NCBI GenBank assembly: GCA_015064415.1
Contig: SVSG01000007.1
Span: 17,858 to 81,857, forward strand
DNA length: 64,000 bases
From: Oscillospiraceae bacterium
Lineage (GTDB): Bacteria > Bacillota > Clostridia > Oscillospirales > CAG-272
Direction of reading: 5' to 3'
Positions within the stretch are counted from its first letter, which is position 1; each line of letters opens with the position of its first letter. The translations under genes and the position numbers were made by a program. Below, one piece after another: positions 25,519 to 64,000 of this stretch. The notes under the pieces were generated by a model. It saw nothing but the letters and a program-made list of their open reading frames with translations. It was not told where the DNA came from and did not search any database.

Positions 25519-25592
25519 GCAGGCGTAGTCTAGTGGTAAAACCTCAGCTTCCCAAGCTGATGCTGCGGGTTCGATTCCCGTCGCCTGCTCCA
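25519..25592 (+). tRNA. tRNA-Gly(CCC), CCA encoded
   Basis: GCAGGCG...CGCCTGC acceptor stem; anticodon stem TCAGC-TTCCCAA-GCTGA; GGTTCGATTCC T-arm; TCCA end. Confidence 0.95.
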
Positions 25593-25641
25593 AAGCAAAA
25601 GGGGCGCCAAACGGCGCCCCTTTTGCTTTGGAGCAGGCGAC
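25580..25641. repeat. 29-bp perfect inverted repeat spanning the tRNA-Gly 3' end and its terminator
   Basis: GTCGCCTGCTCCAAAGCAAAAGGGGCGCC - AAAC - GGCGCCCCTTTTGCTTTGGAGCAGGCGAC. Confidence 0.95.
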
Positions 25642-62981: not shown

Positions 62982-63066
62982 GCGGGCGTGGCGGAATTGG
63001 CAGACGCATAAGATTTAGGATCTTACGCCATTCGGTGTGCAGGTTCAAGTCCTGTCGCCCGCACCA
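62982..63066 (+). tRNA. tRNA-Leu(UAG), CCA encoded
   Basis: GCGGGCG...CGCCCGC acceptor; anticodon stem TAAGA-TTTAGGA-TCTTA; variable arm; GGTTCAAGTCC T-arm. Confidence 0.95.
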
Positions 63067-63070
63067 ACAA

Positions 63071-63110
63071 AAACAGAACATTTGTCTACCGACAAATGTT
63101 CTGTTTTTGT
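63071..63110 (+). terminator. tRNA-Leu terminator
   Basis: AAAAACAGAACATTTGTC-TACC-GACAAATGTTCTGTTTTT. Confidence 0.9.
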
Positions 63111-63114
63111 TTAT

Positions 63115-63293
63115 CCAAGCCGCAGGCTTGGCATATCATCACGACGCAGTCGTGTATATCATCAAGGGCGCATTGCGCCCTTGTATCTCATCACGCGCCA
63201 GCGTGTATCTCCCTGCGGCTTGATGATATACAACACTTCGTGTTGATGATATGCAATTCCTGCGGAATTGATGATATACAAGGCTTCGCCTTG
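63115..63293. repeat. array of 7 short variable palindromes separated by conserved TATCATCA/TGATGATA linkers
   Basis: H1 63115-63131, H2 63140-63154, H3 63163-63183, H4 63192-63205, H5 63231-63245, H6 63254-63270, H7 63279-63293; all arms perfectly complementary; linker orientation flips between H4 and H5. Confidence 0.93.
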
Positions 63294-63342
63294 ATTTATT
63301 TACAGAAGTGTGGTATAATAAACACACAAAGGCGGTGATTTT

Positions 63343-63978
63343 GTGAATGCAAAGAACAAGTCAAACAGTGAAATTGAAAGCTTGATTACGGACGCATCGT
63401 TTTCGTATAAACAACCTTGGTTTTATAATCACCCTTTTGCACTCAGATGTGAATTGGGGATAGGCGATTCCAATCGTGTATATTTAAAAAAAGCCAAGAA
63501 ACGAGCTTTTGAAATATTTGATATTCTTTTTCAAAATCCGCCCGATGCTATATTTTTTGATCATTATATTGAAGATGTTTCTTCGTGGGATGGAATTAAC
63601 GTCAATAATACCATTAGATATTTCAAACGGAATATAAAATTTCTTGCACAGCATGTAAACAAATATGAAAACACCATCGTATTCAACATTCCGCTTGACG
63701 AAGATGAAAAAGAAAATAATGTTCAAAAAAATCGTATTATATGCTATGCAGATTCCAAGTATCCTTACAAAAAAAGAGCAATAGAAAATTTTTCATGGGG
63801 ATCAAGAACAGTACATTTTGTGTCTTTTGAAAACGAATGCATTTTAAGCATTTATGACGATAGAGGTTGTGATATTGTTTTTGCGACAAAAGAAAAAATG
63901 CGAGAATTTTATAACAAATTGAAACCGTATTTTCTCGAATATGATGCAGAAGAAATGTCGAGGCGTTTTAATGATTAA
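63343..63978 (+). CDS. DUF3885-like hypothetical protein, AT-rich
   Basis: FYNHPFALRCELGIGDSNRVYLKKAKKRAFEIFDILFQNPPDAIFFDHY; GTG start; promoter TTGATT(63291)-N17-TATAAT(63314). Confidence 0.7.
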   Translation: MNAKNKSNSEIESLITDASFSYKQPWFYNHPFALRCELGIGDSNRVYLKKAKKRAFEIFDILFQNPPDAIFFDHYIEDVSSWDGINVNNTIRYFKRNIKFLAQHVNKYENTIVFNIPLDEDEKENNVQKNRIICYADSKYPYKKRAIENFSWGSRTVHFVSFENECILSIYDDRGCDIVFATKEKMREFYNKLKPYFLEYDAEEMSRRFND

Positions 63979-64000
63979 ATGCTGATGACATACCAGACAC

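Follow-up and report, generated by a model that had tools for sequence, protein, structure and literature searches.

What kind of sequence places a row of small, perfect hairpins between a tRNA gene and a protein gene? The question is raised by a locus at the right-hand end of the window (the whole stretch of DNA that was analysed, 64 kb). Its parts are as follows.

62982–63066, plus strand: tRNA-Leu(TAG), the host target, identified with ARAGORN; the element begins at the CC|A end of this gene
63066–63111, no strand assigned: H0, a 46-nt palindrome, AACAAAAACAGAACATTTGTC.tacc.GACAAATGTTCTGTTTTTGTT, the left boundary of the element, resembling a bidirectional terminator
63115–63131, plus strand: H1, CCAAGCC.gca.GGCTTGG, whose 5' arm and loop also pair with 63212–63222
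63140–63154, plus strand: H2, CACGAC.gca.GTCGTG, from the hairpin scan
63163–63183, plus strand: H3, CAAGGGCGCA.t.TGCGCCCTTG, from the hairpin scan
63192–63205, plus strand: H4, CACGC.gcca.GCGTG, from the hairpin scan
63212–63222, plus strand: the mid strand, CCTGCGGCTTG, complementary to the 5' arm and loop of H1, with which it covaries; centre of the inversion
63231–63245, minus strand: H5, CAACAC.ttc.GTGTTG, with a GNA loop on the minus strand
63254–63270, minus strand: H6, CAATTCC.tgc.GGAATTG, from the hairpin scan
63279–63293, minus strand: H7, CAAGGC.ttc.GCCTTG, whose last bases form the -35 box
63291–63319, plus strand: putative element-supplied promoter, TTGATT (63291–63296), 17 nt, TATAAT (63314–63319), read from the sequence and recurring in other copies
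63343–63978, plus strand: cargo gene of 211 aa, DUF3885 (PF13021; Pfam E = 1e-19), which travels with the array
63992–64000, plus strand: right end RE-A, of which these are the probable opening bases (..CCAGACAC); the contig stops here, at the base where locus L157 is also cut off

All seven hairpins that the first-pass annotation had placed between 63115 and 63293 were confirmed, as was a complement of H1 (AAGCCGCAGG) at 63212–63221, and the linkers and their inversion between H4 and H5 (ATATCAT becomes ATGATAT after H4) are present as it described. Its formula of variable palindromes with constant spacers is correct, the constant part being linkers of 8–10 nt and the variable part the hairpins; the constant repeats with unique non-palindromic spacers of a CRISPR array were not found. 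When perfect stems of at least 5 with a short loop were counted, the 179-nt array contained seven hairpins, as against a mean of 0.83 (maximum 4) in 1000 dinucleotide shuffles, and 94 of its nucleotides were paired, as against a mean of 8.9 (maximum 46). The array lies within the densest stretch of perfect hairpins in the window, with no equal outside this region. RNA folding of its plus strand gave z = -7.2 and DNA folding of the minus strand from 63067 to 63300, H0 included, gave z = -14.9, none of 200 shuffles being as good in either case. The array matches no catalogued element in Rfam: no family covers its region, tRNAs alone exceeded the gathering score in the window, and the sub-threshold matches there look like chance.

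Similar arrays recur both in the source genome, which has at least seven array loci, and in its relatives, so that array matches were found in 25 of 59 genomes of the order, the source genome included. The pattern of the two linkers was found in at least 120 stretches, most of them in metagenome-assembled genomes (MAGs) of Clostridia/Oscillospiraceae from ruminant and other gut samples; the few matches in unrelated phyla probably arose by chance. Arrays are carried by about 100 further MAG contigs, and nearly all genomes in our sample are MAGs. A class-wide pattern scan for a 4-nt H1 loop matched 6 of 392 genomes, with some copies in other orders, a figure that gives no estimate of frequency because the scan misses copies with a 3-nt loop, including the one in the window. 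Plasmid and phage collections gave no match at blastn sensitivity. Three IMG/VR contigs (L349, L361 and L364) carry real arrays, at least one of them (L349) beside a tRNA-like end; these arrays probably belong to the host flanks of prophage contigs.

We collated 95 distinct elements, 78 of which have a recognisable H0. This long palindrome nearly always stands directly 5' of H1, usually separated from it by the three bases TAT; it opens with AAAAAA or AACAAAAA and closes with the matching T-run. Its sequence differs among copies yet remains palindromic (70 of 85 are perfect), and seven H0 types were each found beside two to five different flanks, which indicates that H0 belongs to the element. 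The upstream palindrome was therefore not, as the first-pass annotation had it, a separate tRNA-Leu terminator of the host: identical H0s occur next to a number of different tRNAs and flanks, and CC|A is where the element starts, so that H0 is an eighth, longer variable palindrome of the element itself. Of the 95 elements, 44 have a complete tRNA gene immediately 5' of them, with 15 isotypes represented; others come after an incomplete tRNA 3'-end copy or after the right end of a different element. In 35 of 40 measurable cases the first A of H0 is the A of the tRNA CCA, and the tRNA remains intact at the junction.

The other boundary is best seen in RE-A, a right end of about 55 nt in which CGTTNTTACC lies between two CACCTTTT motifs and which ends in GCC or similar; copies read ...CCAGACACCTTTTG. 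In nearly all of its 11 matches, RE-A is followed directly by a terminator palindrome or by the H0 of the next element. A complete, two-ended copy of 873 bp, L242, has the form tRNA-Arg-end..GCC|H0...RE-A..AAGCC|ATAACAAAAAGCCCC. It is flanked by ..GCGCC and ATAACAAAAAGCCCCAC, the latter being a tRNA-Arg terminator, and the uninterrupted version of the same site is found beside the tRNA-Arg itself as GCGCC|ATAACAAGAAGCCCCAC, i.e., CC|ATAACAAGAAGCCCC. The tRNA-Leu loci of sister species were examined as empty sites, and nearly all carry other inserts; since they offered no simple empty allele, the duplicated tRNA-Arg site of L242 was used instead. No long duplication was found at the junctions of L242, the cleanest copy. 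As read at these junctions, the right end, with CC or C before the next terminator, regenerates the CC|A site, so that elements stack in tandem (L233, L142 and L207). Right ends are not uniform: a clear RE-A is present in a minority of copies, L002 ends in a tRNA-end repeat, and others differ. We rejected the direct repeats around some copies as target-site duplications of constant length, since their lengths vary from 13 to 32 nt; tandem elements with repeated right ends account for some of them, and a second family of inserts at tRNA ends for others. An end-like sequence, GTTCGAATTCATACGCAAAACTGCCGAAAATATCTTTTTTGTAGCCCATAG, with a T-loop-like GTTCGAAT, also recurs near arrays (L074, L129, L161, L022, L146 and L030).

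The unit also occurs at unrelated places. Over 939–961 bp the H0–array–DUF3885 unit of the window is 93% identical to that of L157 in genome G059, in a comparison of a single pair whose contigs both end at the same nucleotide. The unit of L157 stands behind a tRNA-Trp-like end and that of the window behind tRNA-Leu. Apart from the tRNA, no other part of 3 kb on the side of the window matches G059, and the gene flanking L157 has no close match in the source genome. The window/L157 pair, with one unit at different sites in two lineages, and the clean L242 insertion show what is expected of mobile elements in general. Both contigs of the pair stop at ..CCAGACAC, the probable start of RE-A, and a break there would be expected if RE-A is a repeated sequence that assemblies fail to cross. 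Many arrays lie less than 200 bp from contig ends (in G015, G019, G033, G055 and G058, and at the end of the window), suggesting that arrays and RE-A probably break short-read assemblies and are hence under-counted.

Read at the level of sequence, the collated copies show an element with the order H0, hairpin array, promoter, S23 and/or other cargo, and right end, located immediately 5' of a terminator hairpin at a CC|A junction, for which the tRNA 3' end is the commonest place. The array is real, non-random and, as the comparison of genomes indicates, mobile. We consider it probable that a small mobile element of the cassette kind, about 0.6–1.3 kb long, has the array as its left end; this element would be moved by an enzyme acting on folded single strands. 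Among the meanings first offered for the array, a substrate of recombination or transposition fits best, and a structured non-coding RNA is weakened.

In the arms of the hairpins, sequence varies and pairing is kept. In 90 parsed arrays we found 90 different arm sequences outside H1, and 234 of 285 linker-bounded units (82%) had no mismatch. The prediction that pairing is maintained was borne out, since both the arms and the long-range strand covary among copies. The H1 type CCAAGCC is paired with the mid strand CTGCGGCTT when its loop is GCA, with TGTCGGCTT when it is GACA and with TATCGGCTT when it is GATA; likewise, CCAAACC-GCA is paired with CTGCGGTTT, CCAAGTC-GCA with CTGCGACTT, CCATTAC-GGA with CTCCGTAAT and CCATTGC-GAAA with TTTCGCAAT. 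At least six H1 types thus have a cognate mid strand, and none was found for the type CCAATCC-GAA. The covariation includes the loop, and the mid strand lies 90 nt away from the 5' arm and loop of H1. Own H1/mid pairs match at 9.26 of 12 positions, as against 7.13 (maximum 8.16 in 2000) when pairs were permuted, a kind of test that relatedness among copies inflates.

The two halves of the array have opposite strand polarity. Loops closed by C-G are G..A in 182 of 285 hairpins of the left half and T..C, its complement, in 148 of 218 hairpins of the right half. Imperfect pairs in distinct left-half units were G-T in 22 cases versus A-C in 4 (p = 0.0005); the right half has one G-T and four A-C, and these five mismatches are too few to test alone. 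Each unit looks selected for folding on a single strand, which is the top one for the left half and the bottom one for the right half, since a strand-wide mutational bias would affect both halves alike. Unusual stability in single-stranded DNA is a known property of C(GNA)G mini-loops. We favour a role of the array at the DNA level, because the polarity misfits a single transcript and because, given H0 and where the promoter lies, the cargo mRNA does not include the array. Linker arrays of one orientation, with 4–10 hairpins and neither H0/H1 nor inversion, were also observed (L077, L100, L105, L127 and L145) and are possibly degenerate or expanded halves.

We infer both a mobility step and a role for S23 in the element, and for the enzyme, for S23 and for the strand logic we put forward the following hypotheses. 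A recombinase or transposase acting in trans would recognise the array by shape, each unit, a TATATCAT linker with a C-GNA-G hairpin, being read as a folded single strand, on the top strand for left-half units and on the bottom strand for right-half units. Such reading would explain why arm sequence is free while pairing is kept, and why linkers and loop polarity are fixed. H1 can have either of two partners, its 3' arm or the mid strand, and the two exclusive end structures that result could mark an exposed, processed end. S23, an Avd-related four-helix-bundle protein, would be the best candidate for binding the folded strands, and the other cargo genes would use the promoter in the last unit of the array.

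In the window and many other copies, the 3' arm of the last hairpin together with ATT forms the putative -35 box TTGATT, 16–18 nt from TATAAT. S23/23S_rRNA_IVP (PF05635) is the next gene in about 15 elements, in place of which the window copy has DUF3885; other genes after arrays are NUDIX, ASCH, beta-lactamase-like, GH43, ion-channel and HAD genes or have no recognised domain. The S23-bearing copies are homologous from H0 through the S23 stop codon and diverge beyond it, and some downstream genes, such as the ksgA-like gene behind S23 in L245, are probably host neighbours. Cargo is firmly shown only in L242, L233, L122, L072 and L146 and in the window/L157 pair, where a right end or transfer bounds it.

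S23 is described as functionally uncharacterised and homologous to Avd, a protein of diversity-generating retroelements (DGRs) (PMC10053308), and is encoded in rRNA insertion sequences (PMC11270868). The intervening sequence (IVS) of Coxiella encodes S23 with tandem heptamers just upstream of the reading frame, and this IVS class was once proposed to be mobile, its reading frame serving mobility (PMC4990558). Our array copies of S23 are under strong purifying selection (dN/dS of 0.03–0.09 where dS was measurable), and the nearest solved structure by sequence is 2RLD. Among 40 S23 genes of other subfamilies across the order, hairpins cover 0.16 of the 250 nt upstream, versus a background of about 0.03, and a 7-mer is repeated at least five times within 500 nt upstream in 27 of the 40, versus 8 of 126 control stretches. 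The 7-mers differ among subfamilies (AATGATG, ACATCAC, ATATCAC, ACTTCAC, CAATTCA, AATATAA and others), and the full plan of tRNA, palindrome, array with inverting linkers, promoter and S23 is present in several loci of other subfamilies. Three further loci, L198–L200, have S23 genes bracketed by simple repeats (ATTATGCATTATG, TCTGCATTCTGCA and AGATACAAGATACA) rather than hairpin arrays.

Several other explanations were weighed. That the array is a structured non-coding RNA or attenuator, made by plus-strand read-through from the tRNA and acting on the downstream gene or in trans, would suit its very stable fold, its covarying long-range helix with two alternative, riboswitch-like folds, and the excess of G-T pairs on the plus strand of the left half. 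However, a bidirectional terminator precedes the array: H0 should stop transcription 3 nt before H1, with no room for a promoter, and the cargo promoter comes after the array, which leaves the array outside the cargo mRNA. The right half, moreover, has the opposite loop polarity and, on few data, opposite wobble pairs, and a single transcript cannot favour both halves; together with the lack of an Rfam family, this makes an RNA function of the array improbable. A retroelement that inserts through target-primed reverse transcription, and in which S23 has the part that the accessory protein Avd plays in DGRs, is suggested by the homology of the two proteins (PMC10053308), by an element end at a terminator U-run, by direct repeats of 19–32 nt that flank some copies, and by tRNA-end copies of about 18 nt. 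We regard this as scarcely probable, since RVT_1 (PF00078) was found neither in the source genome nor in the array-rich genomes G009, G013, G019, G030, G055 and G058, all of them incomplete, since L242 shows no long duplication, and since some of the repeats have the other origins given above. Priming of reverse transcription by the tRNA, which had been considered because of the 18-nt tRNA-end copies, was dropped with this result.

Mobilisation of REPIN/BIME-like repeats by a RAYT (REP-associated Y1 tyrosine transposase) would account for small, dispersed palindromes in inverted arrangement, and RAYT-sized Y1 proteins occur in some array genomes. Yet Y1 proteins were found in 14 of 25 genomes with arrays versus 15 of 34 without, i.e., with no association over the 59 genomes, and none was found in the source genome or in the array-rich G005, G009 and G058. 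REP arms are conserved in sequence and array arms are not, and to our knowledge REPs neither carry genes nor target the CC|A of tRNAs; a RAYT origin is thus very unlikely. It is hardly credible that the arrays are functionless, i.e., palindromes perfected by quasi-palindrome template switching at terminators and spread by chance recombination: the perfection of 82% of the 285 units and the common fold-back copies of tRNA ends at sister loci agree with such an origin, but it leaves unexplained the conserved linkers and fixed loop polarity, the excess of G-T over A-C that follows unit orientation, the fixed placement, the promoter, the linkage to S23 and the horizontal spread. Hairpin-templated repair, offered earlier, may be a helper but likewise leaves placement and spread unexplained. 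The remaining alternative, integron-like cassettes moved in trans by a tyrosine recombinase on folded, attC-like single strands, is a special case of our preferred explanation. It shares the cassette logic of a regenerated site, tandem stacking and variable genes, and the recognition of structure rather than sequence; tyrosine recombinases occur in all 59 genomes, and one lies beside an array on contig C20 of G009. Nevertheless, the TIGR02249 cut-off was reached in none of the 59 genomes, and the ends consist of many mini-hairpins instead of one hairpin with extrahelical bases (PMC3053210), so that we judge this special case rather unlikely. The recombinase gene on C20 (3877–4095) ends beside array L036 (3500–3695) and is the only such neighbour noticed.

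The preferred explanation, a cassette-like element with the array at its left end, can be placed among known systems. With integron gene cassettes it shares small units that bear genes and line up in tandem at a favoured site, variable cargo, and palindromic ends in which pairing outweighs sequence; in contrast, no integron integrase was found, the site is CC|A before a terminator, the end is made of about seven mini-hairpins with constant linkers, and the promoter is inside the unit. Compared by eye with an attC site, which has R/L boxes and extrahelical bases on the 3' side of the gene, the structure here is an array of mini-hairpins 5' of the gene. The 23S rRNA IVSs have in common the S23 family (PF05635), short hairpin-forming inserts in stable-RNA genes and a sporadic, presumably mobile distribution, but our elements lie beside tRNA genes and terminators and have an array, a promoter, extra cargo and, in some copies, defined ends; insertion inside a 16S or 23S rRNA helix was not found, the sites being tRNA 3' ends, terminators and right ends of other elements. 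REP/BIME/REPIN sequences are likewise dispersed extragenic palindromes in inverted arrangement, from which our elements differ in variable arms, constant linkers, gene cargo and no correlation with Y1 transposases. S23 has been described as homologous to Avd (PMC10053308), although no reverse transcriptase tracks with the arrays. MITEs are also short, non-autonomous, multicopy inverted-repeat elements, but the ends here are unlike each other (array and RE-A) with neither terminal inverted repeats nor a short, constant target duplication. The element is outside every family tested and behaves like a gene cassette with a shape-coded end.

A broader possibility, which we offer tentatively and think doubtful, is that S23 and the hairpin array serve as the mobility module for bacterial cassettes that make up a large, as yet undescribed class. 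In single strands folded into arrays of GNA-loop mini-hairpins, S23 oligomers would recognise the units with a linker code that is specific to each subfamily and would direct insertion at the CC|A of tRNAs, and the rRNA intervening sequences would be a branch that entered rRNA. We found no published description of such arrays in the open-access literature, an absence that is weak evidence. The occurrence of S23 genes beside arrays with family-specific linkers, at a fixed tRNA nucleotide, gives S23 a testable substrate; what S23 does and where rRNA intervening sequences come from have been questions since the 1990s. The arrays are also a natural experiment in shape recognition, in which the arms are free and pairing, loop type and linker are constrained. 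If they are cassettes, they would give gut Clostridia a way of exchanging genes that present-day annotation misses, because their ends resemble ordinary terminators and intergenic DNA.

We also observed the second insert family directly behind tRNA genes. Its terminator palindrome often continues as an inverted acceptor-end copy and is followed by hairpins and then by a direct 18–22 nt copy of the tRNA 3' end from the T-loop, sometimes in tandem. The family was found at tRNA-Leu loci of sister species (L253–L264, L266, L267, L269 and L270) and at L017, L020, L034, L035, L157 and L182. In the window itself, a tRNA-Gly at 25519–25640 likewise has a terminator palindrome behind it that reaches into the acceptor end of the tRNA, with GTCGCCTGCTCCAAAGCAAAAGGGGCGCC and an inverted copy of it.
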